Of a stretch of DNA of 64,000 nt, positions 6,649 through 28,973 are shown in pieces; within the stretch, counting starts at the first letter, position 1; each line of letters opens with the position of its first letter. This DNA is from Sediminibacterium soli (lineage in GTDB: Bacteria > Bacteroidota > Bacteroidia > Chitinophagales > Chitinophagaceae): NCBI RefSeq assembly GCF_009939225.1, contig NZ_JAACJR010000008.1, positions 803,107 to 867,106 of the forward strand. Reading direction: 5' to 3'. Made by a program: the position numbers and the translations under genes. Below the pieces are notes generated by a model, which had not been told where the DNA came from, did no database searches, and saw only the letters and a list, made by a program, of their open reading frames with translations.

Positions 6649-6683
6649 TGCCATCAATCATCAAGGCGCCCCGGTGTTATTTA

Positions 6684-6742
6684 CCGCCCTGTGCTGAATC
6701 CGGTTCCGCTTCAGGAACAAGATGCGGCACAGGGCAGTTTTT
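6684..6742. terminator. Bidirectional hairpin terminator between convergent genes
   Basis: A perfect 9-bp arm GCCCTGTGC (6686-6694) pairs with GCACAGGGC (6727-6735) and is followed by AGTTTTTATT on the + strand. A small inner hairpin, GTTCC/GGAAC, lies in the loop. It sits between the + gene ending at 6648 and the - gene ending at 6759. Confidence 0.75.
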
Positions 6743-6758
6743 ATTGAGGGTAGCGTTA

Positions 6759-8135
6759 TCAGACCAGCTTCATCGTAACCGGATCCCAGTCGATGGCTTT
6801 TTTCTTTTCTGCGCTGAGGTTACAGATCAGCGCGGGAGCCGCGGCACGGAGACCGAATGACCCATCTTCAAGCGTTGGTTTGCCTGTACGCACGCTCTCG
6901 AAGAAATTGATCATATGATCCAACCTGGAATCATATCCTTTCGGCGCTTCAAATACGATCTCGTCGGCCCATTTGGTTTTGCGGTCGTCGGCGCTGTATT
7001 TCTGGTCGTATTCCTTCAGCAGTTGCTCCTGCATGGCTTTGGGAAAACTTTCCATTGAATCGTATCCGCCGATGCCGGGTGCAACAGGGCGTTTAAAATG
7101 TTTGATCGTAATGGTATTGCCTCTCAGGTCTATCACCCCTTCCGTACCGATCAGCCTGGTGCTTGATCCGCCGCCGGCCCCGTCTGCAAGGTTTACACGC
7201 GTAAAGAACTGGAAGGCATTATGGTTTTCTGTTTTGGGATACTGGGAAATACCCGTAACGATATCATAGGCATCGCGTCCATCTTTCCAGTAGTTCAGCG
7301 CGCCCAGTGCGTATACCTGTTTGGGACCGAGCGAACTGGTGATGGTATGCAGTCCGGTAAAACTGTGTACGAACAGGTCTCCGGCCACGCCTGTGCCATA
7401 TGCTTTGTAATTACGCCAGTGAAAGAACCGAACCGGATCAAAGGGCAGTTTCGGCGCATCGCCGAGGAACATATCCCAATCGATAGTTTTGGGACTCGCA
7501 TCGTTCGGAATGGTGTACAGCCATGCACCGTTGGCGGAGTTACGATCGGTAAACGCCTCTGCATATGTCACGTCGCCGATCAGTCCCTGTTTGAAATATT
7601 TCTGCGCCTCAAGGAATACCAACGAGCTGGCACTCTGGCTTCCTATCTGCAATACTTTACCGCTGGCTTTTTGCGCGGCCACCACGGCCTGGCCTTCATC
7701 CACATGATGCACCATGGGTTTCTCACAGTATACATGCTTGCCCGCTTTCAATGCATCTATAGTAATATGGTCATGCCAGTGATCGCAGGTACAGACCAGC
7801 ACGGCATCGATGTCTTTTCTTGCCAGTATCTCCTTGTAATTTCTTGTTACGAACAAATGGTTGCCCCATTTCTCTTTCGCCCTGTCGAGACGCCCCTGGT
7901 ACAGGTCGCAGACAGCCACCAGTTCCACACCCGGAACTTTCATAGCCGCTGCGGTATCATAATGCCCGATAATTCCGGAGCCGATCAGGGCAATCCTTAC
8001 TTTGTCGTTGGCCGTGACCCTTACTTTCGATAACAATGTCTGAACCTGTGTTGCATCGGCAAGCGCCGGTAATCCAAATAACAGCGATCCCGAGGTCCCC
8101 AATGTACGGATGAACTTTCTCCTGGTAGTTGCCAT
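6759..8135 (-). CDS. Gfo/Idh/MocA-family oxidoreductase with Tat-type signal
   Basis: The 458-residue protein begins with TTRRKFIRTLGTSG, a twin-arginine-like export signal, so it probably works in the periplasm. A Rossmann NAD(P) domain follows (RIALIGSGIIGHYDTAAA), and then the Gfo/Idh signature region CEKPMVHHVDEGQAV with the usual EKP. The C-terminal half is the alpha/beta substrate domain. Members oxidise or epimerise sugars, and some secreted relatives are NAD-dependent glycosidases (GH109 and similar). It lies 55 bp downstream of a GH20 hexosaminidase gene and is the last gene of the run, so an amino-sugar substrate is a reasonable guess. Confidence 0.88.
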   Translation of the reverse strand: MATTRRKFIRTLGTSGSLLFGLPALADATQVQTLLSKVRVTANDKVRIALIGSGIIGHYDTAAAMKVPGVELVAVCDLYQGRLDRAKEKWGNHLFVTRNYKEILARKDIDAVLVCTCDHWHDHITIDALKAGKHVYCEKPMVHHVDEGQAVVAAQKASGKVLQIGSQSASSLVFLEAQKYFKQGLIGDVTYAEAFTDRNSANGAWLYTIPNDASPKTIDWDMFLGDAPKLPFDPVRFFHWRNYKAYGTGVAGDLFVHSFTGLHTITSSLGPKQVYALGALNYWKDGRDAYDIVTGISQYPKTENHNAFQFFTRVNLADGAGGGSSTRLIGTEGVIDLRGNTITIKHFKRPVAPGIGGYDSMESFPKAMQEQLLKEYDQKYSADDRKTKWADEIVFEAPKGYDSRLDHMINFFESVRTGKPTLEDGSFGLRAAAPALICNLSAEKKKAIDWDPVTMKLV

Positions 8136-8190
8136 ATAGATTGTTTTTAGTTGTTACAATAGGATAGAGAATCAACATACGAAACCGGTA

Positions 8191-10104
8191 TCAGCGTCGC
8201 ACCCTGTCGGCCCTGGCCGCCATTTCCGATATCGGCATGGCAATCATCCTGCCCACCGGTTGCTTTCCCTTATAGCTGATCACTTTCAGCATCACCGCAT
8301 CTTTGGGCGGCACCAAGGCACCGGCATATTTCGGATAATAATTGTCGGGGAACGAATTATCAAAAGAATAGTACAGGTCCAGCCCCTTCACCTCCGTTTC
8401 CATTTCTATTTTTAATTGTCTGTCGGCCGTTCTGGAAGATTTGAAAATAGGATCGTATACGCTTGGTGCATATTTTATTTCGGCCATATTCAGCCGGCCA
8501 AAATGGTTCTCCACTTTCGTGAAAAAACGATCCCAGTTCTTTTTCTCCTTAGGGGACCATACCGTTTCCGCTATCGCAAAACCGCGGGGCCATGTCATGT
8601 ATTCCGCATGCCGCATATTGTACACCTGCTCTGTCCACAGGTTAGCCTGGCCACCTTTGATGAACCTGGCATCCACACTGTCGGGAGCGGGTTCAAACTC
8701 ATAGGTCTTGTTTAACCTGAGCGATGCATAGATCCTTGGCTCTATGATCTGGTCTCCCTGCATATAATCGAGGTAGGCATAGGTGGTAGGGCTCATCACC
8801 ACTTCGTGTCCCATCTTCGCGGCGTGGATACCGCCTTTCATTCCCTGCCAGCTCATCACCGCAGCACTCGGAGCAATACCGCCTTCAAGTATTTCATCCC
8901 AGCCAAGGAATTTTTTCCCTTTTGACAAAACGATTTTTTCGAGTCGTTTTTCAAAATAAGCCTGCACCTCGTCCATCGTCTTCAATCCTTCACGCTGCAT
9001 CAATGCCTTGATCTGGTCGCTTTTCTGCCAGAAATTTTTAGGGCACTCATCGCCGCCCACATGAATATATTCAAAAGGAAACAGCTCCGCAACCTGTGTC
9101 ATCACCTTATCAAGAAAATCGTATACCTTTTCGTTCGCAGGGCAAAGCGTATTATCCACCAGCGCTGTGGGCGGGTTGCCTTTTGACCAGTCCATGATCT
9201 CTTCGCCGGAACGAACCCGGTATTTGTCCGCCCCCTCCGTACAGGATAATTCCGGATAGGATACCACGGCCGCAAGACTATGACCGGGTACATCAATCTC
9301 GGGCATGATGTTCACAAAACGCTCTTTGGCGTACTGCACCAGTTCCCTGATATCATCCTGTGTATAAAAGCCGCCATAGTCTTTTGGTTCATCGGGCGCA
9401 GGCGGAGAAAACGTTCCGAAATAGCCTGTTTTGTTCACGCGCCATGCGCCCACTTCTGTCAGTTTTGGCAGACCTTTGATCTCGATACGCCATCCCTCGT
9501 CATCGGTAAGATGCAGATGCAGCAGGTTGTATTTATAGCGCACCATGTTGTCGATGAATTTCTTTACATCTGATTTGGTAAAGAAATGCCGCGATACATC
9601 AAACATCAGTCCTCTCCACCCAAAACGCGGGTAGTCGGTGATCTCGGTCACGGGCGCTGTCCAGGCGATGTTGCCAACCTGCGTGGTACTTTCTATTTCC
9701 TTGGGGAAAAGCTGCATCATTGTCTGCACGCCATAATACAAACCGGCGGGCTGGTTGGCTTTGATGGTGATACCCTTAGTGGTCACCGAGAGCCGGTAGC
9801 CTTCGTTCCCGAGTTTCTTATCAGCGGTTTTGTTCAGCAGGAAACTGATGACCGGGTTAGGCAATGCATTGTTGAGGGTGATGGTACTGCCCGTTGACCT
9901 TGCCATGCGCTGCCGAAGCACGCCCAATACCTCTTTCATTTCGGTATGCAGGGGCGCATGAACGATCACATTCCTGGGAAGTGTAAAGGTTCCGGTTCCT
10001 GTTTTCAGGGAAACGGGTTCGGGAATAATGGCAATCGTTGGTTTGTTCTGTGCGCCGGCAGCCAGGCAGAGACACAGACTGAATACGGTGAGCAATTGTT
10101 TCAT
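8191..10104 (-). CDS. Beta-N-acetylhexosaminidase, GH20
   Basis: I chose the ATG at 10104, because it begins a clean signal peptide (MKQLLTVFSLCLCLAAGAQ); a longer frame would overlap the upstream gene. A GH20b-like domain (about 25-150) precedes the GH20 barrel. The catalytic Asp-Glu pair is D352-E353 in HVGGDECPKNFW, and HLHLTDDEGWRIEI is the conserved strand before it. GH20 enzymes release terminal GlcNAc or GalNAc by substrate-assisted catalysis. The 637-residue length is normal. The gene follows the haloperoxidase by 37 bp on the same strand and gives the best clue that the locus handles amino sugars. Confidence 0.93.
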   Translation of the reverse strand: MKQLLTVFSLCLCLAAGAQNKPTIAIIPEPVSLKTGTGTFTLPRNVIVHAPLHTEMKEVLGVLRQRMARSTGSTITLNNALPNPVISFLLNKTADKKLGNEGYRLSVTTKGITIKANQPAGLYYGVQTMMQLFPKEIESTTQVGNIAWTAPVTEITDYPRFGWRGLMFDVSRHFFTKSDVKKFIDNMVRYKYNLLHLHLTDDEGWRIEIKGLPKLTEVGAWRVNKTGYFGTFSPPAPDEPKDYGGFYTQDDIRELVQYAKERFVNIMPEIDVPGHSLAAVVSYPELSCTEGADKYRVRSGEEIMDWSKGNPPTALVDNTLCPANEKVYDFLDKVMTQVAELFPFEYIHVGGDECPKNFWQKSDQIKALMQREGLKTMDEVQAYFEKRLEKIVLSKGKKFLGWDEILEGGIAPSAAVMSWQGMKGGIHAAKMGHEVVMSPTTYAYLDYMQGDQIIEPRIYASLRLNKTYEFEPAPDSVDARFIKGGQANLWTEQVYNMRHAEYMTWPRGFAIAETVWSPKEKKNWDRFFTKVENHFGRLNMAEIKYAPSVYDPIFKSSRTADRQLKIEMETEVKGLDLYYSFDNSFPDNYYPKYAGALVPPKDAVMLKVISYKGKQPVGRMIAMPISEMAARADRVRR

Positions 10105-10141
10105 AGGTGATGGTTGTATGTGCAATGATGTATAGTTACGG

Positions 10142-11449
10142 TTATTCAAGTATTTTTTTTACGATCAGGTCACCCACTTTTTTTCCCTGTATGGCGCCCT
10201 GGTCTACGCTGTTACGGTAATGGATGCCTCCGTATACCCTGCTGATCGATGCCTCTGCAGCCGCTTCGTGAAAAGAATTGAAATGTCGCTGCATACCGAT
10301 ATACCGCAGATCGCTGGTGTCCTGGAAGGCAAACCTGTTTCCGTACAGTTTTGTGAGTACGGTTGCCGCAGCGGCGGTGATGGCGCTGTGTCCGCTTGGA
10401 TATTCGGGGAAAGGCGGCGTTTGTAAAAAAGGCTGCCAGTTTTTGTCGCGCATCTCGTTGATCACGGTTACAGGTCTTACGATATTGCTCCGGTATTTTT
10501 CATCCCAGCATACGATAAACGCATCATACAGTGCCACGGCCGTTAATGCATAGCTCTGCGCAGTCTTCACGGGGTCGGCATTGGTCTGTCTTGCGGCAAT
10601 GGCCGTAATACCCATCCAGTGCCCGCCGGGTGTGATCTTTTTGTTGCCGAACATCATGTGCCCGGAATGTTCTATCACAAAGGGATTGTCGTCCCAGTAA
10701 CGGGCGATGGTTTTCTGTTCCTCTGTCAGCGAGTCGCCGATATGCTGTACCGCTATCGCCTGCTTCATAAAGAAACTGTTGGTATCTGTGCTGTAAACAG
10801 GGGGGCGCGGAAGCAGGAATTGTGCACAGGTATCCAGGGTCATCGACTTCATCGTATTCCAGCACCATTCCACGCCATCCAGGTAATCGGGGGGCGTAGG
10901 GCGCCACATACCGGGGTTGGTGCTGCCGAGGTGTTTGGGTTTGCCGCGCGACAAGGCATAGCCATCGGTTTTTGCCCTCACCAAAATCCGTTTCGCCACT
11001 TCCTCCCCGAAAGCCACCGAGCGCGCATAAACAGAATCGTCGAGCGACTCTTTAAAATCGCCATACACTTTGTTCTCGTAGGCATCCAGCGAATCCACCG
11101 AGAACACTTTTATATTCCTTGCAACATGAAAAAAAGCTTTTGTTGCCGCCAGCGTATAGTTGTATTCTTTTCCCTTTTCCGGTTCGGGCATTTTGTCGAA
11201 CCTGTTCAGCTTATCGGTGATCGAGGGCATTCCCTTCTTATCAAAACGGATCGCCTCGTACGAAGCAAGCGATGCGTAAACATAGATACGGCTTGCCACC
11301 GGCGGGGTAAATACGTCGTAAATAATGATCTGCGTTAGCAGGTCCTGGTTCTGGTGCAGTATCTCCGCATCGGCCATGCGTTCCTTTTTGGCATGACGGC
11401 AGCCTGCAAAGATCATTACAAATAATAGTAGCGTTCCTGTATATCTCAT
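10142..11449 (-). CDS. Vanadium-dependent haloperoxidase / PAP2-superfamily lipoprotein
   Basis: The 435-residue protein starts with a lipoprotein signal (FVMIFAGC, lipobox cysteine at residue 17). The VHPO/PAP2 active site is visible: EYPSGHSAI with H354, and SRVYGGIHYRNSVDQG with R404, H410 and D416. The conserved W-R-P-T-P-P segment near the centre is typical of the bacterial VHPO group. Characterised members oxidise halides with H2O2 on vanadate; PAP2 phosphatases share the fold, so phosphatase activity is not excluded. It lies 21 bp downstream of a cytochrome-c/FG-GAP gene. A surface or periplasmic site is inferred from the lipobox. Confidence 0.85.
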   Translation of the reverse strand: MRYTGTLLLFVMIFAGCRHAKKERMADAEILHQNQDLLTQIIIYDVFTPPVASRIYVYASLASYEAIRFDKKGMPSITDKLNRFDKMPEPEKGKEYNYTLAATKAFFHVARNIKVFSVDSLDAYENKVYGDFKESLDDSVYARSVAFGEEVAKRILVRAKTDGYALSRGKPKHLGSTNPGMWRPTPPDYLDGVEWCWNTMKSMTLDTCAQFLLPRPPVYSTDTNSFFMKQAIAVQHIGDSLTEEQKTIARYWDDNPFVIEHSGHMMFGNKKITPGGHWMGITAIAARQTNADPVKTAQSYALTAVALYDAFIVCWDEKYRSNIVRPVTVINEMRDKNWQPFLQTPPFPEYPSGHSAITAAAATVLTKLYGNRFAFQDTSDLRYIGMQRHFNSFHEAAAEASISRVYGGIHYRNSVDQGAIQGKKVGDLIVKKILE

Positions 11450-11470
11450 AGCACTGAATTGTTCTCTTCG

Positions 11471-13060
11471 TTACTTATGTATGTTCTTCAACACCATAAA
11501 CGGCGGGCCCTGCGTCCAGTCGAGCTTCGGTTTCACCGTGGTTGGCCGGATAGAGAAATTACCCAGCACAATATCGGGTTTACCGTCGCCGTCCAGGTCG
11601 CCCGCATCCATGGTCAGCCACCTGCCTGCATTGGTTGCCGGCAACGTATGCGGCGAAAACTGCAGCCCGCCCTCGTTCTGCAGGTATACGAAGCCCTCTT
11701 CCGGCGAACCGGCATAGTCAGCAAAAAAAGCGATCGTGGCAATATCCAGATCGCCATCGCTATCGTAATCCCTGGCCATCGCCTTATAACATCCATTGAT
11801 CGGGAAAAAATAAGCCTGCTTAAAGCGGTTGCCGCCTTCGTTCAGGTAAATGTATACACCGTGGTAAGGCTTCAGCACCAGCGAGTAATCTGCGTTATCG
11901 CCGCAGGTATAGATAATATCCTTTTTTCCGTCATTGTTGATATCGGCAAATTCAAAATACGTGGAGCCATATAAGGCCGGAAAACGAAGTACTGCCTGCT
12001 GGTCAAACTGGCCGTTGCCTTTGTTGGTGAACAGGTGAATGCCCTCGTTGCCCTGAGAGAACAATGCCCATACATCCTGCAGACCGTCATGATTTACATC
12101 CTCCACATAGGTTTTCAGCACACCCGGCTCCGCCAGTAAGGTATGGTGTTCGTATTTACCGTTGCCTTTGTTCTCCATCCAGGCAAGTCCCCCTGTTAAA
12201 TGGCCGAACTCGCATACCAGGTAATCCGTTCTGCCATCGTTATTCAGATCACAGGAAACCATTTGCACCGGACGTGCCAGGCTGTCGAACAGCGGCTTCG
12301 TATCCAGCGACAGTCTGCCGCCTGCATTCTTCCTGATCAGCTGTCCCTTTCCGTATTTACCGTTATTGGGATTGATGATGTTCACATTGCATGCAAGCAG
12401 ATCATTGCCGTGAAAATCAACATCGGTAATGGTTGCATCGGAACGGAATGTGTCGAGCAACTGCAACTGGTGATCATAGCGGAACATTTTCTGCGCCACC
12501 AGATCAAACAAAAACAGCTGTCTCGAAGTGGCCGTCGTATCCAGTTTGGTTAAACAGATGCCGGCCGCAGGATAGTTAAGCGCAGGTGTTTGCACCGCAA
12601 ACAATCCAAGATCGGGCCGTATGGGCTGCCTTTTCGCCTTTGGCAGCGAATCGGGCGACACAGAAGTGTAATAATCTATGATATGCTGCCAGTCGTCGTT
12701 GCTGATCACGGGTTTATCCGGATAAAAATTTGCCGGCAGGTCTTTGTCCGTTTTATAGGAAGGGTAACGCGCAAATCCATAACTGAAGATACCCAGCCTG
12801 GGACCCATGGCCGGCAACGCACCGGTTTCCCATGTTTTGGAATCGAGCTCGGAGGGATCGGGTAAAAGATGGCAGGACTGGCAATACGTTATTGCAAGCT
12901 GTTTGCCTTTTTCGATACGCTCGTCCGGAACATCTTTGTGCGATTGATTTTTTCTGATGGCCGGCTTGCAGGAAAAAAGGGATAGCCCCCCGATCACCAT
13001 GATCAGTATGGCGGTGCTGTTGAATGCTGGTCTGTTTTTCATCTGTCGTTGCTTACTCAT
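11471..13060 (-). CDS. Lipoprotein with one c-type heme motif fused to FG-GAP repeats
   Basis: The 529-residue product has a lipobox (LSLFSC, C31), then a single heme-c attachment motif C60-Q-S-C-H64 in a short cytochrome-like segment (KGKQLAITYC through SKTWETGALPAMGPRLG). Residues from about 165 form a beta-propeller of FG-GAP/VCBS repeats with calcium-type loops: DLNNDGRTD, DVNHDGLQD, DINNDGKKD, DYDSDGDLD and DLDGDGKPD. The ATG at 13060 overlaps the previous stop (ATGA), which fixes the start; an ATG at 13042 is the alternative. Function unknown; an electron-transfer or binding role at the cell surface is inferred from the heme motif and neighbours. Confidence 0.85.
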   Translation of the reverse strand: MSKQRQMKNRPAFNSTAILIMVIGGLSLFSCKPAIRKNQSHKDVPDERIEKGKQLAITYCQSCHLLPDPSELDSKTWETGALPAMGPRLGIFSYGFARYPSYKTDKDLPANFYPDKPVISNDDWQHIIDYYTSVSPDSLPKAKRQPIRPDLGLFAVQTPALNYPAAGICLTKLDTTATSRQLFLFDLVAQKMFRYDHQLQLLDTFRSDATITDVDFHGNDLLACNVNIINPNNGKYGKGQLIRKNAGGRLSLDTKPLFDSLARPVQMVSCDLNNDGRTDYLVCEFGHLTGGLAWMENKGNGKYEHHTLLAEPGVLKTYVEDVNHDGLQDVWALFSQGNEGIHLFTNKGNGQFDQQAVLRFPALYGSTYFEFADINNDGKKDIIYTCGDNADYSLVLKPYHGVYIYLNEGGNRFKQAYFFPINGCYKAMARDYDSDGDLDIATIAFFADYAGSPEEGFVYLQNEGGLQFSPHTLPATNAGRWLTMDAGDLDGDGKPDIVLGNFSIRPTTVKPKLDWTQGPPFMVLKNIHK

Positions 13061-13548
13061 TTTCTGCTGTTTGCCTGTTTGATCTGTCCTGATATCGATA
13101 ATACATGCTTCACGCCATTGGAAGTATTGGTGGTAACGATGATCGTTTTATGCACGGTTCCCGGCTGGTTATGTGTATTGAAATTCACTTTCATCACGCT
13201 CTCTTTCCCGGGCATGACCGCAGCCTCGGGGTATTTGGCTATCGTACAGCCGCAGGACGGTTTCACACCCGATATGAACAAAGGATGCGACCCGGTGTTT
13301 CGGAAACGGAAATCAAACACCACGCTGTCGCCCTCGTTTACCAGACCAAAATTCCGGTCGGGCTCCAGCCATTCCACCGTGGTAAAATGCACTGTATCTA
13401 TCTGCGCCAGTCTGGCCGGTTTGATGCCAAGGTTGTTCGCATAGGGCTGGGCCGGACTTTCTTCGTTTGTACAGGCGTTCATCAGCAGGCAAACGATGGC
13501 TATTCCGAAAAAACAAACTGTCCGTATGGTTGTATGTATCGTTTGCAT
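13057..13548 (-). CDS. DUF1573 lipoprotein
   Basis: This 163-residue protein has a lipoprotein signal ending MNAC with acidic residues just after it (TNEES), which in Bacteroidota favours surface export. The rest is one DUF1573 Ig-like domain (ASPM-SPD-2-Hydin type), with FDFRFRNTGSHPLFI, the conserved PSCGCTIAKYP and KVNFNTHNQPG. No enzymatic residues are seen; it is probably a structural or adaptor module. It overlaps the cytochrome/FG-GAP gene by 4 bp and lies 1 bp after the giant FG-GAP gene, so all three are clearly one transcript. Confidence 0.88.
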   Translation of the reverse strand: MQTIHTTIRTVCFFGIAIVCLLMNACTNEESPAQPYANNLGIKPARLAQIDTVHFTTVEWLEPDRNFGLVNEGDSVVFDFRFRNTGSHPLFISGVKPSCGCTIAKYPEAAVMPGKESVMKVNFNTHNQPGTVHKTIIVTTNTSNGVKHVLSISGQIKQANSRK

Positions 13549-13549
13549 G

Positions 13550-16500
13550 TTACCTGATCTTTCTTTGCTTACCTTCTTTATCGGTGATGGTGACCGCCGA
13601 TATGTTATCGCCGGTTACCAGGAACCGCGCCGACTGCGACAGGAAAGAACTGCCCCAGTAAAACTCGCATGCCTGCGCTGTGCCATCCCTGTATTGTATG
13701 GTAGCACGTACATCATTGGCGCCCACGGGAACAGAACCAACCGTTTTTTTCAGCGCCAGTATTTTCATCGGTCCCCTGTTCTGCGCAGCGGCCAGCAGGT
13801 ATTTTCCGTTCGCGCCCCGCAGTTTTACCAGCGATTTGCCATTGCCCGGAATGTATACGCCGCTCTCGAGTATCGACAGGGGTGTAAAGTTTCCTTTACC
13901 GTCTCCCTTTAACAGAAGCCCGTTCAATGCATCGTAGCGGCCAACCGAGACTTCCGTTCCGTAATCGTTGCCATTGATCAGCACATCGGGTTTTCCATCG
14001 CCTGTAAAATCGTCCACCACCATACCGTTCAGCACAGAGAACTGGGCCTGTACGGGCAAAGGCTGCAGGGTAAATTTCCCATTGCCATCGTTGCGGAGAT
14101 AGGATGATACCAGGTTATTCGCCTTCAGCACCAGCGCGTCTTTCATCTGCTCTTTCGAAAACAGCTGGTCTATGGTGGCGGTTGCATAGGATGTAAAGTT
14201 CTGGTATCTGGATCGCATACCGATCACCTGTTTCACAATATCCTCCCTTGTCTGCGCAGGAAACAGTTTACGCGTCGAATCCTGGAAACTGACCGTATGA
14301 TAGAGGGCAGGGAACGCATCGTAGCTGCCGTTGTTATCAAAATCTTTTGCGTAAATAGCCACCGGATACTGATCTGAAGCACGGTAGAGCGAGTTCTTTC
14401 CCAGGTTGCCAACAATGTAATCGATGTCTCCATCGTTGTCAAAGTCGCCCGGCGCAATGGTATTCCACCAGCCCACCTGGCTGGCGATACCGGTTTGTTC
14501 CGTACTGTTTTTGAACACGCCTTTTTCATTCCGGAAAAAACGCAGCGGCATCCATTCGCCCGCAAGGATCATATCCACCCAGCCGTCATTGTCAAAATCG
14601 GTAAATACCATATCGCAGACAAGACCGATGTTTGAAAGCTCATTGGCCACCTGCGCCGTAACATCGGTGAACTGAACCTTGCCGTTGCGGGAATCGTTAC
14701 GGTAAATAAAACTGGACACGGGTTTGGGATAGTTCCAGGGTTCCACCCTTCCCGCAATAAAGAGATCGAGATCGCCATCTTTATCGTAGTCGGCCGCGCG
14801 AACGCAAAACTTGCTTGTGGTATTGAAAGGCAATGCCAGCGAATCGCGGCGATAATTTCCTTTGCCGTCGTTCAGGTACAGGCGATCGAGGTAGGCATTG
14901 CTTTGGGGCGCGTGTTCATAACCGCCGCCGGCAATGTACAGGTCGAGGTCATTATCACCGTCTGCATCAAACAGCAGCAATCCCGCGTCCTCGCCCGGTT
15001 TGGCAGCCAGCTGTGCCGGAGGGATCAGCGGTCTTTGCCGGAATTTACCATCGGGCTGCTGCAGGAAGATCTGTGCGCTGTAACCGAATGCGCCTCCTAC
15101 GATAATGTCATCCTGTCCGTTGCCATCGATATCGCCCGCCGCCATCGCCGGGCCATATTCCGACAGTTTATGCGGGAGCAATTTCTGGATATTGAAATCG
15201 ATGAAATCTTGCTCTTCGTGCAGGTAACGGATGCCCACCGAATCAGACACTTCCCGAAACAGGGAAGCGGTATTGAACAATGGCTGCTCAAACGAGGCGC
15301 CCTGCCTGGCATCCGCCAGTTTTACCGTCAGTACCTGGTCTGCTTTTACCTTGCGCAGCGTTTGTCTGGTATGATCGGGCCATACGATCACCACAGAATC
15401 GATATCGGTGACGGCCCCCAGGCCAAAATGCGCACCGGCCTGGTTGGTTGAGAGGTACCCGCGGTAAGGCGTATTCTCCCATACCTGTTTCTTATTGCGG
15501 TCATAGCATATCTCCGCCCAGGCGCCGATACCGTTTTTATTGTACCGGCCGCCTTCAAATTTCAGGTCAAGGTAATGATCGCTCTTTACTTTATCACGGA
15601 GCGTGTTGCGGTATACAAATGCTTTGTCGTTGATATTGTTGACCACAAAATCGAGATCGCCGTCGTTGTCAAGGTCGGCATAGGCGGCGCCGTTGGAGAA
15701 ACTGGGTTCATCGATGCCCCAGGCTTTTGTGGTATTGCGGAACTGAAGGTTGCCCTGGTTGCTGAAAGCATAGTTGGCTATTTTCACCTCGGGAACCTGG
15801 TCGAGTATCTCTTTCTTGCTGGCCACCGCAAAAGCCTTGTTGCGGAATGAAATAAAATCATGATCTGTCACATCTTTGGGAAACCCGTTGGTTACAATGA
15901 TATCGCGGAAACCGTTGTTATCGAAATCAACCACCAGCGGCGTCCAGCTCCAGTCTGTTTCGGCAATACCTGTTAAAAAACCGATATCGCTGAACACCGG
16001 TGCGCCGATGGAATCGTTCTGTCCTACCCTTGGCCCCTGGTTCAGCTGTACAACATTGCGCACATACTGGTACTGGTAACCGTAGTAGTCCATGTTCATG
16101 TACAACTGGTAGCTGTTGGGCATGAGCATCATCTTCTTCCGGTAATTGTCTTCCGGATCCATATCCAGTTCGATCACATCTTCCAGTCCGTCGTTGTTGA
16201 TATCCACCACATCCTGTCCCATCGAATTGGCGGAAGTGTGTTTGAAATAGGTTCTTACCTGGTCGGTGAATGTACCGTTGCCGTTATTGATATAAAGAAT
16301 GTTGTTGGGAAGAAAATCGTTGGTCACATAAATATCCTTCCACCCGTCTTTATTGATATCGCAGATATTGACTCCATGACCGTAGCCTTCAATGGTGATA
16401 CCCGCTTCTTTCGAAACATCGGTGAATACAGGATGCTTCAGGGCCTCGTTCCAGTCGTTGCGGAACAGTTTATCTGTATTGGGATTCTCGCTGTTTACCA

Positions 16501-17119
16501 GTATCGGCCTGAACTTATTGGGGTAATCCGTTTTCTTGATCTCGTTCACCAGCAGGTACATATCCAGATCGCCGTCGTTGTCATAATCAAAGAAAGCAGC
16601 CATGGTGGAATGCACGGTTGCCTTCAAGCCGTATTCGGCCGCTTTTTCCGAAAAACTGGGAACGCCTGTTTTGCCGGGGCCGTTGTTGATGAACAAAAGG
16701 TTTTCTCTTTTGGCGGGATCTTTAAGCAGGGTGGCACAGACATAAATATCCATCCATCCGTCGTTGTTGATATCAACAACACTTACGCCCCGGTACCAGT
16801 AACCTTTTCCGGCCACGCCGGCTTCTGCGGTGATATCGTCGAATTTGAAATCGCCTTTGTTGAGGTATAGTTTATTGGGAACTCCGTTGCCTGTAAAATA
16901 AATATCCTGCAGGCCATCGTTGTTAAAATCGCCGATACCCACACCGCCGCCGTTGTAGATATTTTCCATCTCGAGTACATTCAGCGAATCATTATCCACG
17001 ATGTTATTGGCGAAATGGATACCCGATCTGTCAGGATCTATTTTCTGGAAAAGTGTTGGCTTTCTGCATCCAAACAACAACAGTATAACCGCCAGCAGCG
17101 GCAATAGTATTCTTTTCAT
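13550..17119 (-). CDS. Giant FG-GAP/VCBS lipoprotein with ASPIC-UnbV domain (CRTAC1-like)
   Basis: The 1189-residue lipoprotein (LLLFGC lipobox, C18) contains two long blocks of FG-GAP/VCBS repeats, with many calcium-type loops such as DFNNDGLQD, DINNDGWMD, DYDNDGDLD and DIDGNGQDD. The blocks are separated by an ASPIC/UnbV domain at about residues 520-600 (GIGAWAEICYD through SVVIVWPDHTRQTL). The architecture is that of bacterial CRTAC1-like proteins, whose role is unknown but is generally taken to be binding or adhesion through beta-propellers. It is the first gene after the SusD terminator and leads a six-gene run ending with a Gfo/Idh oxidoreductase. Confidence 0.9.
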   Translation of the reverse strand: MKRILLPLLAVILLLFGCRKPTLFQKIDPDRSGIHFANNIVDNDSLNVLEMENIYNGGGVGIGDFNNDGLQDIYFTGNGVPNKLYLNKGDFKFDDITAEAGVAGKGYWYRGVSVVDINNDGWMDIYVCATLLKDPAKRENLLFINNGPGKTGVPSFSEKAAEYGLKATVHSTMAAFFDYDNDGDLDMYLLVNEIKKTDYPNKFRPILVNSENPNTDKLFRNDWNEALKHPVFTDVSKEAGITIEGYGHGVNICDINKDGWKDIYVTNDFLPNNILYINNGNGTFTDQVRTYFKHTSANSMGQDVVDINNDGLEDVIELDMDPEDNYRKKMMLMPNSYQLYMNMDYYGYQYQYVRNVVQLNQGPRVGQNDSIGAPVFSDIGFLTGIAETDWSWTPLVVDFDNNGFRDIIVTNGFPKDVTDHDFISFRNKAFAVASKKEILDQVPEVKIANYAFSNQGNLQFRNTTKAWGIDEPSFSNGAAYADLDNDGDLDFVVNNINDKAFVYRNTLRDKVKSDHYLDLKFEGGRYNKNGIGAWAEICYDRNKKQVWENTPYRGYLSTNQAGAHFGLGAVTDIDSVVIVWPDHTRQTLRKVKADQVLTVKLADARQGASFEQPLFNTASLFREVSDSVGIRYLHEEQDFIDFNIQKLLPHKLSEYGPAMAAGDIDGNGQDDIIVGGAFGYSAQIFLQQPDGKFRQRPLIPPAQLAAKPGEDAGLLLFDADGDNDLDLYIAGGGYEHAPQSNAYLDRLYLNDGKGNYRRDSLALPFNTTSKFCVRAADYDKDGDLDLFIAGRVEPWNYPKPVSSFIYRNDSRNGKVQFTDVTAQVANELSNIGLVCDMVFTDFDNDGWVDMILAGEWMPLRFFRNEKGVFKNSTEQTGIASQVGWWNTIAPGDFDNDGDIDYIVGNLGKNSLYRASDQYPVAIYAKDFDNNGSYDAFPALYHTVSFQDSTRKLFPAQTREDIVKQVIGMRSRYQNFTSYATATIDQLFSKEQMKDALVLKANNLVSSYLRNDGNGKFTLQPLPVQAQFSVLNGMVVDDFTGDGKPDVLINGNDYGTEVSVGRYDALNGLLLKGDGKGNFTPLSILESGVYIPGNGKSLVKLRGANGKYLLAAAQNRGPMKILALKKTVGSVPVGANDVRATIQYRDGTAQACEFYWGSSFLSQSARFLVTGDNISAVTITDKEGKQRKIR

Positions 17120-17197
17120 ACAGAAGCAGCAGGTTTATCGAAATAAATATGCCTGAAAATACGGTTTCCCACGCATAAATATTCAGGAACGCGGGAT

Positions 17198-17232
17198 AAA
17201 AAAAGGGCTGTCCGATATTTCAGGACAGCCCC
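17198..17232 (-). terminator. Intrinsic terminator after the SusCD pair
   Basis: On the - strand, GGGCTGTCC (17223-17231 complement) and GGACAGCCC (17205-17213 complement) form a perfect 9-bp stem with a 9-nt loop, followed by seven T (17198-17204). It lies 34 bp after the SusD stop and 79 bp before the giant FG-GAP gene start, so it should reduce transcription into the downstream genes. Confidence 0.9.
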
Positions 17233-17265
17233 GGCTTAAATTATGACAAGCATTGCTATCGGCTA

Positions 17266-19002
17266 TTAATAGCCCGGGTTCTGTTTCAGTGTAGGAGCAC
17301 CGTCTTTGATGCTGTTGGTCACTGCAAATTCAGGAATCGGCAGCAGCTCGTGTTTTCCTTTGGTAAAATTGGATCCGCCCAGCGCTTCCACTCTCCTGGT
17401 GCCTTCTTTGGGGAAGTACTCGGTGTTCAGGAATACATCGGCAACACCCCAGCGAACCAGGTCAAAGAAGCGATGTCCTTCCATACCCAGTTCCAGTCTT
17501 CTTTCAAAGCGAACGGCAGTCTGTGCTTCGGCTTTTGAAACAAAGGGAACAGCATAGGTGTTACAAAGGTAGTTGGCAGCTGTGGCGGCGCCGTTCATTA
17601 CAGGCGAATTGGCGGCCCTTGTTCTTACCATGTTGATATAGGTACGTGCCACTTCGAGGCTTCCCACTTCTATTTCAGCTTCGGCGGCAAGCAGCAGCAC
17701 ATCGGCAAAACGCATAGGCGTGTAGTTAAGCGCATTGTTCGCAAAACCCCAGCCCACGGTACCTGCCAGTGTTCCGATATCTGCTTTGTAGTAAGTGTTC
17801 TTCTTGGGTGAATAGGGTCCGCCATAATCCACTTTACGGATCCAGTCACGTCCCGGGTGAATACCCCAGTCGTAATAAGGAATACCCCTGCGGCCCACTG
17901 TCCAGTCAAGCCTTGGATCCAGGGTACCTGCATAAGGCGTAAATGGCTGAAGTGAAGTAACCGTTTCGTCGCTGGTTACATCCAGGTCGTTGTATGTGGT
18001 GGGCAGTGGCAGTCCAAGCACGCTTGTACGGAACGCGTTCACCATGTTCTGCGAAGGCTGGAAGAATCCGCAGCAGGCGCCGGGTTTGTCGTTGGCGCTA
18101 CCGTTGTGCGGGTAATTCAGCGTGTTGTCATAGTTACCATTGGTATTGGCGCCATCACCATAAGAGGCCTGGATAGAAAATACGGTTTCCGTATTGTTCT
18201 CTGTCAGCGCACGGAAATTTGTCTGGTACGTAGCGGTCAGCTGGTATTTCTGTCCCTGGCTGTTCTTGCCATTGGTGATGATGGCATCAAACAACGCTTT
18301 GGCTTCTGTAAACTTATTCTGGAACATATAGGCTTTTGCCAGGAATGCGGCGGCAGCCCATTTGTTTACACGGCCTTTGTGTTGTTTTGTTTCATCCAGG
18401 TTGGCATAGGCAAACTGAAGATCCGACTCGATCTGGGGCCAGATATTCACATAAGCAGCGCCCGAAAAATTGGCCTGTTTGAAATCCTTTACTTTTTCAT
18501 CGATAAAAGGAACGTTGCCAAATGCTTTCTTTCCTTCAAATAACTGGAAAGCACGGATGAATTTGGCTTCTGCCTCTATCTGTTTTGCATCGGCGGCGGT
18601 TAGGTCCTTAACGTTCGGTAAAACAGACAGTACCTGGTTTGCGGCACCTACGCCGTCCCATATACCGTTCCATTTATTGTTCATCTGGCCGTTGCTGGGC
18701 GTAAGCTCAAAACGCATGATGGGATTGGCTTCCGACATATCCGATGGCTCGGTGCCTTTATAGGCTTCACCGCCGCGGATACTGCCCCATAGCCAGTTAC
18801 TGGCGCCGCCGTTCTGCTGGCCCTGGATACCGTCCAGTGTTGCATATGCATTGATCAGCATACCGTCTATGCCTTTTTTATTGGTAAGACTCGCCAGGTC
18901 GTATACACCCTGTGGCGGCTGGTCAAGGAATGCTTTTTTGCAGGAATATATTACCACTGTCAAACCGATAGTGGATAATATGATGACTATTCTCTTTTTC
19001 AT
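17266..19002 (-). CDS. SusD/RagB-family nutrient-binding lipoprotein
   Basis: The 578-residue protein has a lipobox at VIYSC (C21) followed by KKAFLDQPPQG, the usual SusD start. SusD hallmarks are the N-terminal AQAxxIRAxxYF-like helix seen here as EAEAKFIRAFQLF, NNKWNGIWDGVGAANQVL, and the C-terminal RFERRLELGMEGHRFFDLVRWG. These proteins form the lid on the SusC channel and bind oligomeric substrates at the cell surface. It starts 26 bp after susC and ends at a strong terminator. The substrate cannot be told from sequence; the neighbouring GH20 gene suggests an amino-sugar glycan. Confidence 0.95.
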   Translation of the reverse strand: MKKRIVIILSTIGLTVVIYSCKKAFLDQPPQGVYDLASLTNKKGIDGMLINAYATLDGIQGQQNGGASNWLWGSIRGGEAYKGTEPSDMSEANPIMRFELTPSNGQMNNKWNGIWDGVGAANQVLSVLPNVKDLTAADAKQIEAEAKFIRAFQLFEGKKAFGNVPFIDEKVKDFKQANFSGAAYVNIWPQIESDLQFAYANLDETKQHKGRVNKWAAAAFLAKAYMFQNKFTEAKALFDAIITNGKNSQGQKYQLTATYQTNFRALTENNTETVFSIQASYGDGANTNGNYDNTLNYPHNGSANDKPGACCGFFQPSQNMVNAFRTSVLGLPLPTTYNDLDVTSDETVTSLQPFTPYAGTLDPRLDWTVGRRGIPYYDWGIHPGRDWIRKVDYGGPYSPKKNTYYKADIGTLAGTVGWGFANNALNYTPMRFADVLLLAAEAEIEVGSLEVARTYINMVRTRAANSPVMNGAATAANYLCNTYAVPFVSKAEAQTAVRFERRLELGMEGHRFFDLVRWGVADVFLNTEYFPKEGTRRVEALGGSNFTKGKHELLPIPEFAVTNSIKDGAPTLKQNPGY

Positions 19003-19028
19003 ATCGTTCTATTTCAGACTGTTTTTAA

Positions 19029-22000
19029 TTAGAATGTTACATTCAAACCAAACAGGTATTGTTTAGGATTGGGGAAACCGCCCAGATCAACACCCAGATA
19101 GTAGTCACGTGCACCAAACGGATCGCGTGAGAGCAGGTTCATGTCCGGATCTGCACCCTTGTATTTGGTGATGGTGAACAGGTTCTGTGCCTGTACGTAC
19201 AGTTTTACACCCTGCAGTTTTACTTTGTTTACGATGCTCTTGGGAAGCGTGTAAGAAAGCTGCATTGTTTTAGCACGCAGGTAAGAACCGTCTTCTACAT
19301 AGTAGCTGTTGGAAGTGGTGGTGGTATACGAAGTGTATCCGTTTGCAGCACCGGGCGCCAGCAATGGCAGTTTGGCGTTGGGATTGCCCGCTGTCCAGCT
19401 GTCTGTCAGTACCCTTGTGCTTACACCGCCCACGAACACACGCATGTCTGTGTAGTACTTGGTGTAGTTGAATATTTCGTTACCCTGGTTCCAGAAGAAG
19501 AACGCTGTCAGGTTCCAGGCCTTGTAGTTCAGGCCTACATTCAGACCCATCTGGAAATCGGGGTGCGGGTTACCAAGATAGGTCCTGTCGGCATCGGTGA
19601 TCTTTTTGTCGCCGTTCAGGTCTTTGTAACGCCAGCTGCCGATTACAGCTCCCGGCATGGAAAGCGCGGCGAGGTCTGCAGCAGAGTTATAAAATCCGTC
19701 AAGGATAAATCCATGGAAAGAAGAGATCGGCTGACCCACATCGGTCCTGATCGCACTGGCCAGTCGCTCCAGACCGATCACCCTCGGAGAACCTTCGTTA
19801 TTGAGTTTGGTCATCACGTTCTTGTAATGAGAGAAGGTTACACCCAGGTCGTAAGAGAAATCGCCCCTTGTTCCGCCATGGTAATTGATCGCCAGGTCAA
19901 AACCGGTGTTACGCATGGTACCGATGTTTACCCTTGGCTTGGTAAGCTGGGGTTCAAGACCGTTTCTTACCGCATCCACCAGCAGGTCTTTGGTGTCTTT
20001 TTTATAGATATCCAAAGTGAAATCAACCTTACCGTTAAAGAGTGTCGCGTCTACACCGAAGTTGGTGCTTTCGAGTGTCTCCCATTTGGTGTTCAGGTTA
20101 CCCTCGCGGTCGTTGCGGTAACCCTGCGCGGAGGAAGTGTTGTTACCGTTGATATCGTAGTTGGTTCGTTCAGGATTGGAGATATACGTAAAGAACTGGT
20201 TATTGGGATCCACGTTCGATGTACTACCCATCTGGCCCCAGCCACCGCGGAGTTTCAGGTCGGTGATCCAGGAAACGGATTTCATGAAGTTCTCTTCAGA
20301 CACCCTCCAGGCAAGACCGATAGACGGGAAGTTCGCATAACGCACATTGGGTCCGAATACAGAGCTACCATCCCTTCTGAATGTTGCGGTCAGCAGGTAA
20401 CGGTTCTTGTAGATATAATCCAGTCTTCCGAAATAGGAGAACAAAGTGCTTCTGCCCACATTGTAGTTGGAGATCGTCCTGTCGCTCAGGCTACCTGCGG
20501 TAGCTGTGTTCAGCGACACGAAATCAGGTGTTTCAAAATCGAAGTTCTGTCCGAAAGCACGTACGCCTCTTGAGTAGTTCTTGATGGCTTCGGTACCGGC
20601 CAGCACTTTCACATTATGGTCTTTGAATGTTTTTTCAAAGGTGAGGGTGTTGGTCCATGTCCAGTTGGCATAGTACCAGCCGTCTTCTGTTAACTGGGTA
20701 GTGGCCTGGTTCTCTGAACGCTCGTAAGTTTTACGGGTGATGGACCTGGTGAACTGTGTTCCCATATCCACACCGAAGGAAGAACGCGCAGACAGCCAGC
20801 TGGTGAAAGGCACTTCCGCATAGATATTACCAAACAACCTGGTGAATTTGTTCGTATTGTCTCTTGCACGGGTAAGGTTGGCGATGGGGTTGCTGCCGTT
20901 ACCGGACTCACCCACACCGTTACCGCCAAATCCGCCCTTGATATCGTATACGGGAATATACGGCACCATCCTGAAAGCAGATGCCCATGCATCGCCCTCG
21001 CCGCGGTTGCTACCGCCCAGACGCTCTTCGTAGCTGATCTGCAGGTTCTCACCGATCTTCAGGAAGCTCACCGGCTTGAAAGAAGTGTTGGCCCTTACAG
21101 AATAGCGTTTGAAATAAGTATAAAGAAAAGAACCTTCCTGGTTAAAGTAGTTGGCGCCCAGCGAATACTGCGCTTTGTCGGTACCGCCGGAAGCAGATAT
21201 CTGGTGGCTCATGATCAGGGCATTCCTGGTAAGCTCGTCAAACCAGTTGGTACCGCTGCTTGTTTTGGAGATCTGGTACAGGGGACTGATCGAATACAAA
21301 GCAGGATTTGCTCTCGGATCCGAAGCAGCCACACCGCCTTTGAAAGCGGCGCTGGTGATATAATAATCGGGGATTTTAAAAGAACCGTTCGCGCCGAACA
21401 CGGGGTGCGTATAAGTGGAACCTGTAGTTCGCTGCAGGTAGTCCATATACTGCGATGTATTCAGCATCTTGGGCATCATGCCATCGGTTACCACCTGTGA
21501 GCCGATATAGGCATCATAGGTAAAGCTGGGGCGACCCGCTTTACCCTGTTTAGTGGTAACGATGATCACACCGTTGGAAGCGCGGGAACCGTAGATAGAA
21601 GCGGCAGAGGCATCTTTCAGCACCTGCAGCGATTCGATATCGTTCGGGTTGAGTTTGGAACCGTCCGTAGTGGGCACTCCGTCGATCACATACAGCGGAT
21701 CGTTGTTACCGGCAGAGGCAAAACCCCTGATACGAACCACGGCACCTGCACCGGGCTCACCGGCAGAACTCACCACCACACCGGCTGCACGGCCCTGCAG
21801 CTGAACGGCCATGTTGGAAGCAGGCGTGGCCTGCAGGTCCTTGGTGCTCACCACCGATACCGCACCGATGATGTCTTTTTTCTTCTGCGCCGTATAACCG
21901 GTCACCACAATCTCATCGAGAGCAGTGGCCACTTCGGTAAGCGCAAAATCGAGTGAGGTGTTGGAACCTACCAGTCTTTCCATAGACTGGAAGCCAACCA

Positions 22001-22238
22001 CGGTTACCACCAGGGAGCTCTTCTCGGAAGCGTTGATGGTAAAAGTACCTTCCGAATTGGTAATGGTGGTGGCAGTGGTTCCCTTAACCTGAACAGTTGC
22101 ACCGGCAATGGGCTGGCCATTGGCTTTGTTAGTGATCTTACCACTAACTCTTTTTTGGGCAAAGCTGGTTAAGGCAAAGACGGAAAAGGCTAAAACAAGC
22201 AAGGCATTTCTCGCAAGCAGCGAATAAGTTTTTGGCAT
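19029..22238 (-). CDS. SusC/RagA TonB-linked outer-membrane transporter
   Basis: The 1069-residue protein has a signal peptide (LTSFAQ cleavage near 28), a carboxypeptidase-regulatory-like domain (about 30-115, VSGKITNKANGQPIAGATV), a TonB plug with the SusC signature SIYGSRASNGVIIVTTKQG near residue 215, and a 22-strand barrel ending in YLFGLNVTF. It imports large substrates with energy from TonB-ExbBD. There is no N-terminal STN domain, so sigma/anti-sigma signalling through this protein is not expected. Control by the divergent AraC-type gene and by the two palindromes upstream is more likely. Confidence 0.96.
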   Translation of the reverse strand: MPKTYSLLARNALLVLAFSVFALTSFAQKRVSGKITNKANGQPIAGATVQVKGTTATTITNSEGTFTINASEKSSLVVTVVGFQSMERLVGSNTSLDFALTEVATALDEIVVTGYTAQKKKDIIGAVSVVSTKDLQATPASNMAVQLQGRAAGVVVSSAGEPGAGAVVRIRGFASAGNNDPLYVIDGVPTTDGSKLNPNDIESLQVLKDASAASIYGSRASNGVIIVTTKQGKAGRPSFTYDAYIGSQVVTDGMMPKMLNTSQYMDYLQRTTGSTYTHPVFGANGSFKIPDYYITSAAFKGGVAASDPRANPALYSISPLYQISKTSSGTNWFDELTRNALIMSHQISASGGTDKAQYSLGANYFNQEGSFLYTYFKRYSVRANTSFKPVSFLKIGENLQISYEERLGGSNRGEGDAWASAFRMVPYIPVYDIKGGFGGNGVGESGNGSNPIANLTRARDNTNKFTRLFGNIYAEVPFTSWLSARSSFGVDMGTQFTRSITRKTYERSENQATTQLTEDGWYYANWTWTNTLTFEKTFKDHNVKVLAGTEAIKNYSRGVRAFGQNFDFETPDFVSLNTATAGSLSDRTISNYNVGRSTLFSYFGRLDYIYKNRYLLTATFRRDGSSVFGPNVRYANFPSIGLAWRVSEENFMKSVSWITDLKLRGGWGQMGSTSNVDPNNQFFTYISNPERTNYDINGNNTSSAQGYRNDREGNLNTKWETLESTNFGVDATLFNGKVDFTLDIYKKDTKDLLVDAVRNGLEPQLTKPRVNIGTMRNTGFDLAINYHGGTRGDFSYDLGVTFSHYKNVMTKLNNEGSPRVIGLERLASAIRTDVGQPISSFHGFILDGFYNSAADLAALSMPGAVIGSWRYKDLNGDKKITDADRTYLGNPHPDFQMGLNVGLNYKAWNLTAFFFWNQGNEIFNYTKYYTDMRVFVGGVSTRVLTDSWTAGNPNAKLPLLAPGAANGYTSYTTTTSNSYYVEDGSYLRAKTMQLSYTLPKSIVNKVKLQGVKLYVQAQNLFTITKYKGADPDMNLLSRDPFGARDYYLGVDLGGFPNPKQYLFGLNVTF

Positions 22239-22877: not shown

Positions 22878-23765
22878 ATGCAGAAAAAAGTGCATCTCCT
22901 CAGGGAGATTACGCCCCTGACATCCGCTGATTGCTTTGCTATTTTTTCCCGTACCAAATCGGGACTGGAATACCCGCTGCATTACCACGAAGAATTCGAG
23001 CTGAACTTTATCCGCAATGCCAAGGGCGCCAAACGGGTGGTGGGCGATCATGTGGACGAGATCGGCGAATACGAGCTGGTTCTGCTGGGGCCCAACCTGC
23101 ACCATGCCTGGCATACACACAGGTGCCAGAGTCTCGAGATCACCGAAGTCACCATCCAGTTTCACAAAGACCTGTTCGACGAAAAATTCCTGCGGCGCAA
23201 CCAGCTCAGTTTTATGCGCTCCATGCTGGAGAATTCGCTGCGCGGAGTATTGTTCTCCTACGAAACGGCTTCTCTCCTGGCCTATCGCATCATGCGACTC
23301 AATAAGAAAGATGGTTTTGATTCTGTTTTTGAGTTGATGTCGATACTCCATGAACTGTCTATCTCGCGTCATACACGCATTCTCTCCAACTCCACTTTCA
23401 ACAATAACCAGCATATCGCCTACAACAGCCGGCGGATAGAGCGGGTGATGGAATACATGAACGAGAACTTCAACAAACCCATCTCACTTTCCGAAGTGGC
23501 CTCGTTTACGAATATGGCGGACTCCGCTTTCAGCAGGTTCTTCAAGGCGAGAACGGGTATGACTTTTATCGACAGCCTTACAGAGATTCGCCTGGGCCAC
23601 GCTTCGCGTCTGCTGATCGATACCACGCAGTCCATCTCGGAGATCGCCTATGAAACAGGGTTCAACAATATCTCCAACTTCAACCGCATCTTCAAGAAGA
23701 AAAAAGGCTGTACGCCCAAGGAATTCAAAAAAAGCTATTCGGCGGAAGAGCGGTTGTTCTTCTGA
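22878..23765 (+). CDS. AraC-family transcriptional regulator with cupin-like sensor
   Basis: The ATG at 22878 gives a 295-residue protein; a longer upstream frame has no family similarity. The N-terminal half is an AraC-type cupin-like domain (GLEYPLHYHEEFELNFI, LLGPNLHHAWHT). The C-terminal hundred residues hold two helix-turn-helix units, SLSEVASFTNMADSAFSRFF and SISEIAYETGFNNISNFNRI, ending in the family KKGCTPKEFKK. Such regulators respond to sugars. It is divergent from susC, so it is the best candidate controller of the SusCD locus (inference). Confidence 0.92.
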   Translation: MQKKVHLLREITPLTSADCFAIFSRTKSGLEYPLHYHEEFELNFIRNAKGAKRVVGDHVDEIGEYELVLLGPNLHHAWHTHRCQSLEITEVTIQFHKDLFDEKFLRRNQLSFMRSMLENSLRGVLFSYETASLLAYRIMRLNKKDGFDSVFELMSILHELSISRHTRILSNSTFNNNQHIAYNSRRIERVMEYMNENFNKPISLSEVASFTNMADSAFSRFFKARTGMTFIDSLTEIRLGHASRLLIDTTQSISEIAYETGFNNISNFNRIFKKKKGCTPKEFKKSYSAEERLFF

Positions 23766-23878: not shown

Positions 23879-24262
23879 TTACAAAACCAGTTGTTCAAAA
23901 AGTTTCTGAAGCGTAGTTTTTGCATCTATGCACAGGCCGGGGTGTACCTGGGAGGTTTGTATGATGGTGCTCCTGTTGGCGGTGAGCCAGCGGAACCGGG
24001 ATGCGGTATCGAGTTTTGCGATCGGCCCGCCATCTGCAGATCCTTTACATATTTTTTCGAATGAGCACAGCCTTTCCTGGAGGTCATTCATATCCAGTGC
24101 CCCGCAAAATAACACCAGTCTTTTTTCCTCAATTGAAAACAATACCTCCAGGAATTGCTGGTCGCGGCAATAGAGTATCACCCCCACATTCAGGAACTCC
24201 TCGCGCTCTACGCGGGGCACAATGCGGATGACCGCGTACTCAAACAATTTCCGCTCTTGCAT
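23879..24262 (-). CDS. DUF3037 protein, partner of the HipA-like kinase
   Basis: This 127-residue cytoplasmic protein matches DUF3037: the N-terminal FEYAVIRIVPRVEREEFLNVGVILYC segment is the family's main feature. It has no known catalytic residues. It overlaps the HipA-like kinase gene by 23 bp and follows it, a pairing common in bacterial genomes. Function is unknown; a regulatory or partner role to the kinase is inferred from the overlap. Confidence 0.85.
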   Translation of the reverse strand: MQERKLFEYAVIRIVPRVEREEFLNVGVILYCRDQQFLEVLFSIEEKRLVLFCGALDMNDLQERLCSFEKICKGSADGGPIAKLDTASRFRWLTANRSTIIQTSQVHPGLCIDAKTTLQKLFEQLVL

Positions 24263-27325: not shown

Positions 27326-27406
27326 GGTAGTAGGTTGTATGATCAATCAAAAAAGTTTGGGTTTACGGAGTGGGGTTATCGCGTTCGGACGGCAACAGCG
27401 TCTGCA

Positions 27407-27706: not shown

Positions 27707-27832
27707 ACGGCAAAATTGAGTGCAAAAGGTACGCTTTTCCACCGATTTGCATCCTGCAGGACACGCTGTAACCTGAACTTATGTAACTTCATTTGCATGG
27801 CGGCAAGCCATCATACCCTAACAAACAAAGCC

Positions 27833-28963: not shown

Positions 28964-28973
28964 ACCATAAGCA

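Follow-up and report, generated by a model that had tools for sequence, protein, structure and literature searches.

A SusC-SusD transporter pair, a giant ASPIC/FG-GAP protein resembling CRTAC1, and a vanadium-haloperoxidase-like protein (VHPO), with a DUF1573-cytochrome c/FG-GAP cassette in some loci, constitute a real, conserved unit of linked genes. The unit was examined in a window of 64,000 nucleotides from Sediminibacterium soli (contig NZ_JAACJR010000008.1, positions 803,107 to 867,106 of the forward strand), meaning here the whole stretch of DNA that was analysed. The reading we prefer, at a probability of roughly 0.45, is that a SusCD system for the uptake of glycans or glycosides has been joined to a separately inherited couple of ASPIC and VHPO genes with a proposed oxidative role. 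The locus comprises the following features, in order of transcription, followed by the neighbouring regulator.

19029..22238, minus strand: SusC/RagA TonB-dependent outer-membrane transporter (TIGR04056, 833 bits; Plug and barrel domains)
17266..19002, minus strand: SusD/RagB lipoprotein, the partner of SusC (PF07980, E 7e-43)
17197..17232, minus strand: terminator-like hairpin with a T tract, separating the SusCD couple from the genes that follow (hairpin 17232-17204; RNA fold -20 kcal/mol, z -4.5)
13550..17119, minus strand: giant CRTAC1-like ASPIC/UnbV FG-GAP lipoprotein of 1189 aa (PF07593, 75.5 bits; PF13517, 227 bits)
13057..13548, minus strand: DUF1573 lipoprotein with a CGC motif (PF07610, E 3e-27)
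11471..13060, minus strand: cytochrome c/FG-GAP lipoprotein P0005 (CxxCH at residues 60-64, candidate Met ligand at 85)
10142..11449, minus strand: vanadium-haloperoxidase-like PAP2 lipoprotein P0006, the VHPO (PF01569; 4cit, E 2e-114)
8191..10104, minus strand: GH20 beta-N-acetylhexosaminidase with a signal peptide, a local add-on (PF00728, E 2e-113; nearest structure 6q63)
6759..8135, minus strand: Tat-type Gfo/Idh/MocA oxidoreductase, a local add-on (PF01408; nearest structures DgpA and 8tdf/8tdh)
22878..23765, plus strand: divergent AraC-type regulator upstream of the SusC run (PF12833)

An ORF check returned the eight minus-strand genes with the coordinates and order given in an earlier, sequence-only reading of the window, and TIGR04056 and Pfam matches bore out its domain calls for SusC, SusD, FG-GAP plus UnbV_ASPIC, DUF1573, GH20, and Gfo/Idh. 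Intergenic gaps from SusC to Gfo/Idh are, in order, 26, 146, 1, -4, 21, 37, and 55 bp. The genes had been described as tightly packed on one strand; they do share a strand, but the hairpin between SusD and ASPIC probably divides them into two transcription units. Translation of the GH20 gene probably starts at the ATG at 10104, which would give the protein an ordinary signal peptide, so that it is probably not a lipoprotein. Orthologues of the AraC regulator adjoin VHPO loci elsewhere (L040, L048, L050, L108, and L122). No match to the Bacteroidetes -33/-7 promoter motif lies upstream of the locus genes, with fewer matches than in shuffled sequence, and a sigma-70 scan gave as many matches as the shuffles did. 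In the gap between the 3' end of the Gfo/Idh gene and a convergent gene, positions 6640-6758 of the window fold into a hairpin of high stability (-47.7 kcal/mol, z -4.6) that is probably a bidirectional terminator. Beyond the AraC gene, positions 24240-30074 encode a HipA-like kinase, a GH3 glycosidase, a second Gfo/Idh protein, and a metallo-beta-lactamase-fold protein; of these, the GH3 and the second Gfo/Idh may share a sugar pathway with the locus.

Conservation was surveyed in 20-kb regions from genomes of the window's family, 80 of 149 of which have a VHPO, and in 80 further loci from named genomes. The orthologue clade used below consists of 81 distinct loci with VHPO identity of at least 52%; these were picked as the nearest VHPO relatives, and percentages therefore apply to that clade. 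Of the 73 loci with enough sequence, 67 have ASPIC one to four genes upstream of VHPO on the same strand; of the 63 testable for all three genes, 54 have SusC, SusD, and ASPIC upstream of VHPO. Carriers span several families and include Chitinophaga, Dyadobacter, Mucilaginibacter, Pedobacter, Sediminibacterium, Segetibacter, Flavihumibacter, Cnuella, and Paracnuella. The full block of six genes occurs in one other genome (L036), with 54-79% identity per gene, and ends there with an esterase where the window has GH20 and Gfo/Idh. The earlier proposal would have been undermined had other genomes carried these genes in unrelated contexts; instead, the linkage of SusCD, CRTAC1-like, heme-c/FG-GAP, and haloperoxidase genes recurs among them.

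The association of ASPIC with VHPO extends across the class. We drew 396 Bacteroidia genomes evenly and scored them for strong genes (those among the matches listed, with at most two ASPIC genes per genome); strong ASPIC was present in all 62 genomes with a strong VHPO versus 24 of the 334 others (Fisher p 5e-53, phylogeny ignored). A listed ASPIC was within 12 kb of 54 of the 103 strong VHPO genes, where about 1% would be expected. We examined 18 loci with no listed ASPIC nearby, and 10 have an ASPIC gene just upstream on the same strand, while one more has it as a divergent neighbour. In Zobellia's family, three tandem ASPIC genes precede a gene 99% identical to the crystallised iodoperoxidase zgVIPO, and ASPIC is directly upstream of VHPO in 14 of the 16 flavobacterial loci fetched. 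Because the linkage is found in this family as well, it spans VHPO clades that are about 40% identical. Conversely, 89 of 148 listed ASPIC genes had no listed VHPO within 12 kb, which indicates that ASPIC has other roles as well. In the flavobacterial loci (L175-L190), ASPIC genes stand two or three in tandem, with a GyrI-like protein downstream and often an adjoining YidK-type sodium:solute symporter (SSF).

The transporter and the ASPIC-VHPO genes have separable histories. Pairwise distances in the 54 complete loci correlate at 0.93 for SusC with SusD, 0.82 for ASPIC with VHPO, and 0.50 for SusC with VHPO, and the partial correlation of VHPO with SusC falls to 0.03 once ASPIC is taken into account. 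The simplest reading is that two couples, SusC-SusD and ASPIC-VHPO, recombine. The boundary between them coincides with the terminator-like hairpin, which was found in 51 of 61 SusD-ASPIC gaps (1.4 in shuffles) and, by the same search, in 0 of 53 SusC-SusD gaps and 0 of 20 ASPIC-VHPO gaps longer than 20 nt. Two of five other gaps 3' of SusD contain a hairpin too, so such hairpins may commonly follow susD. The SusD-ASPIC hairpin, a probable terminator or attenuator, keeps its structure between loci while its sequence changes. Somewhat more tentatively, the same data may point to a class-wide oxidative outer-membrane module, hitherto undescribed, in which the ASPIC-VHPO couple plugs into varied SusCD importers and would combine uptake with hypohalite chemistry. 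No description of ASPIC-VHPO-SusCD linkage was found in the literature searched, many subscription papers being outside its reach.

Sequence conservation of ASPIC equals that of VHPO and exceeds that of SusC and SusD, with mean p-distances of 0.40 (ASPIC), 0.41 (VHPO), 0.55 (SusC), and 0.53 (SusD). The best PDB fold match of its AlphaFold model (pLDDT 80, pTM 0.81) is CRTAC1 (9etn, E 2.6e-25, TM-score 0.75 by target length), which is also the only PDB sequence match. Both proteins have an FG-GAP propeller followed by an ASPIC domain. The window protein differs in being twice the size of CRTAC1, with a second FG-GAP part and a lipoprotein anchor, and a Pfam scan found no EGF domain in it. Since it lacks the C-terminal EGF-like domain of vertebrate CRTAC1, we regard it as an ASPIC-family protein rather than a CRTAC1 orthologue. 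A motif count gave 12 calcium-type DxDxDG loops. No catalytic role is evident for ASPIC, which we interpret as a platform for binding or docking.

The VHPO itself is related to haloperoxidases of known structure. P0006 has 13 PDB sequence matches, every one a haloperoxidase and none a phosphatase; the best is the Zobellia vanadium haloperoxidase 4cit, with 43% identity across 418 residues. Residues W315, K318, R325, P326, H354, R404, and H410 are invariant in an alignment of 78 VHPO orthologues, and the predicted vanadate pocket (Lys, Arg, Ser-Gly-His, Arg, and His) is complete in P0006. These conserved residues support vanadate binding, short of proof. The motifs W-x-x-K-x6-RP and PPFPxYxSGH are conserved and match zgVIPO (4cit and 4usz), a protein whose iodoperoxidase activity we take from citing papers and PDB titles. 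P0006 has every active-site residue of zgVIPO, and its gene likewise sits behind ASPIC. P0006 belongs to another clade, however, and its locus differs in having a single ASPIC, a cytochrome c cassette, and a direct SusCD partner. We know of no clear physiological role for the vanadium haloperoxidases of Bacteroidota.

The PAP2 superfamily, the sole above-cut-off Pfam match of P0006 (PF01569), also includes phosphatases, and phosphate and vanadate sites are interchangeable within it. P0006 could be a phosphatase in vivo, active outside the inner membrane on phosphoglycans, phospholipid head groups, or sugar phosphates, and SusCD would then import what is left after the phosphate has been removed. 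The loci are otherwise hydrolytic (GH3, GH2, GH20, and GH92), and Ser352, a vanadate contact by analogy, is replaced in 17 of the 78 orthologues (Ala in 15, Cys in 2); both observations are in keeping with a phosphatase. The complete absence of acid phosphatases among the PDB matches, the two motifs shared with zgVIPO, and the same ASPIC context around that tested member make this explanation unlikely, though it is the strongest of the competing ones.

The assignment of P0005 as a heme-c protein, made in the earlier reading, agrees with its homologues as far as sequence can indicate: CxxCH is kept in all 57 cytochrome/FG-GAP homologues near VHPO and a downstream P-x-M motif in 45 of them, and P0005 has both the heme motif and the candidate distal Met. 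Pfam recognises no cytochrome domain in P0005. The model (pLDDT 80) consists of a helical N-terminal domain around CxxCH and a beta-propeller whose best PDB match is again CRTAC1. The cytochrome gene is present in 38 of 73 testable loci of the orthologue clade and absent from about half, and the cassette is thus optional within the module. Its placement ahead of VHPO goes with that of two partner genes: a cytochrome gene precedes VHPO in 12 of 16 loci with a DUF1573 or thioredoxin-like gene versus 2 of 65 with neither (Fisher p 2e-9). DUF1573 is found in 11 loci of the clade, the thioredoxin-like gene in 5, and both together in none; the two may do the same job. Mucilaginibacter has one or two cytochrome/FG-GAP copies downstream of VHPO rather than ahead of it.

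Most VHPO and ASPIC proteins have lipoboxes. At least one acidic residue at positions +2 to +6 after the lipid cysteine occurs in 32% of VHPO versus 65% of SusD proteins, and the acidic export signal is weak in VHPO, ASPIC, and DUF1573 and moderate in SusD. VHPO may therefore face the periplasm; surface location of VHPO and ASPIC is an assumption, and a periplasmic face is possible for both judging from these signals.

If a SusCD uptake system has been joined to an ASPIC-VHPO couple, ASPIC, as a calcium-stabilised double beta-propeller, would dock the peroxidase or bind substrate at the outer membrane near the transporter. VHPO would use H2O2 to oxidise iodide or bromide, and either the hypohalite product or the removal of peroxide would act on incoming material. 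Targets might be glycans with aryl linkages or some other form of shielding, or the oxidative burst met at plant and algal debris. The optional cassette of DUF1573 or thioredoxin-like protein with cytochrome c/FG-GAP would probably take or give electrons for periplasmic or surface sugar oxidation, and GH20 and Gfo/Idh would process whichever sugar the Sediminibacterium soli strain imports. Like other PUL/SusCD systems, the locus has a SusC-SusD pair, accessory outer-membrane lipoproteins, a glycoside hydrolase, and a neighbouring regulator. It differs from them in that a haloperoxidase, a CRTAC1-like protein, and often a cytochrome c are conserved with no fixed set of glycosidases, and in the AraC regulator and the hairpin between the two couples.

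The same enzyme could instead serve defence, using up environmental H2O2 and directing hypohalite against competitors or against the oxidative burst of plants and algae, with SusCD co-located because it is useful on the same surfaces. Upregulation of Zobellia vIPO3 in response to the brown alga Ascophyllum nodosum (PMC9296495) fits this idea, as does the tie between VHPOs and oxidative stress in algae (PMC13198595). We consider it improbable, marginally more so than a phosphatase, as a defence gene standing on its own would not be linked so regularly to SusCD and glycoside hydrolases, and no catalase or other defence gene recurs among the annotated neighbours.

Co-location of carbohydrate-active enzymes with SusCD is apparent in the window, where GH20 is inside the gene run and the GH3 is at 25037-27346. 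The earlier reading had proposed an oxidative or halogenating system to attack, or to bind, a resistant amino-sugar polymer such as chitin or peptidoglycan, with import by SusCD. It was right that the SusCD locus carries an unusual redox element, and that linkage is recurrent; the amino-sugar part is weak. A GH20 is present in the window locus and near four others, and a GH2 nearest to exo-beta-D-glucosaminidase occurs in 12 of the 81 loci, but both enzyme types also act on N-glycans and other glycans, and no glycosidase is common to the clade. GH20 orthologues are near VHPO in only 5 of 81 loci and Gfo orthologues in 2 of 81, so neither gene is part of the conserved unit and both are local add-ons. 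The glycoside hydrolases near VHPO vary (GH3 in 23 loci, GH30 in 6, GH20 in 5, GH92 in 3, and GH38 as well). As other loci carry GH3, GH2, GH30, GH92, GH38, or GMC enzymes, a single amino-sugar polymer is unlikely, and it was rejected as a general substrate because GH20 and Gfo are not conserved neighbours; for an attack on one such polymer the odds appear poor. The module seems attached to differing glycan or glycoside loci. The window Gfo/Idh resembles glycoside 3-dehydrogenases, judging by its nearest structures. GMC dehydrogenases are near VHPO in 9 of 81 loci and PSD1 cytochromes in 2 of 81. The idea of the GMC neighbours as a source of H2O2 was not supported, their nearest structures being fructose/glucose dehydrogenases, not oxidases.

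Least probable of all is halogen capture, in which iodide would be oxidised outside and the oxidised iodine imported through SusCD or a neighbouring symporter: Arenibacter C-21 accumulates iodine, has five zgVIPO homologues, and has been proposed to use a haloperoxidase for this (PMC5064120), and an SSF symporter adjoins several flavobacterial loci, but that symporter is a YidK-type solute transporter and no identified iodide carrier, many carrier genera are non-marine, and the glycoside hydrolase neighbours point to glycans. Iodine uptake in C-21 needs glucose, oxygen, and calcium, with H2O2 and a haloperoxidase proposed to take part, which also speaks for the reading that we prefer. The glucose oxidase and haloperoxidase system proposed for C-21 (PMC5064120) resembles the present one in its zgVIPO-type enzymes, calcium requirement, and occurrence in Bacteroidota; it differs in that no genetics or locus is described there.

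If the more tentative reading of a class-wide oxidative module is correct, the bacterial ASPIC/CRTAC1-like family gains a function. A fixed genetic partner and a transporter context provide a testable framework for the VHPOs of Bacteroidota, one that predicts interaction between ASPIC and VHPO and the substrate of the neighbouring SusCD as the target of the chemistry. Should VHPO oxidise halides, the cycling of halogens and the formation of organohalogens would be coupled to nutrient uptake by marine, soil, and plant-associated Bacteroidota.

Two further gene arrangements were observed around VHPO. A second, distinct VHPO cluster is found in the Sediminibacterium soli genome itself (L054, C13:1131000-1150900) and in L062 and L064-L073. 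It consists of tandem ASPIC genes, a GH65-type enzyme, a conserved 190-aa protein, VHPO, and two uncharacterised envelope proteins, and many genomes add another VHPO of about 515 aa. In two Dyadobacter loci (L075 and L078), VHPO has downstream of it PSCyt1/DUF1549/DUF1553, DUF1501, and DUF2231-cytochrome genes, a combination more familiar from Planctomycetes.
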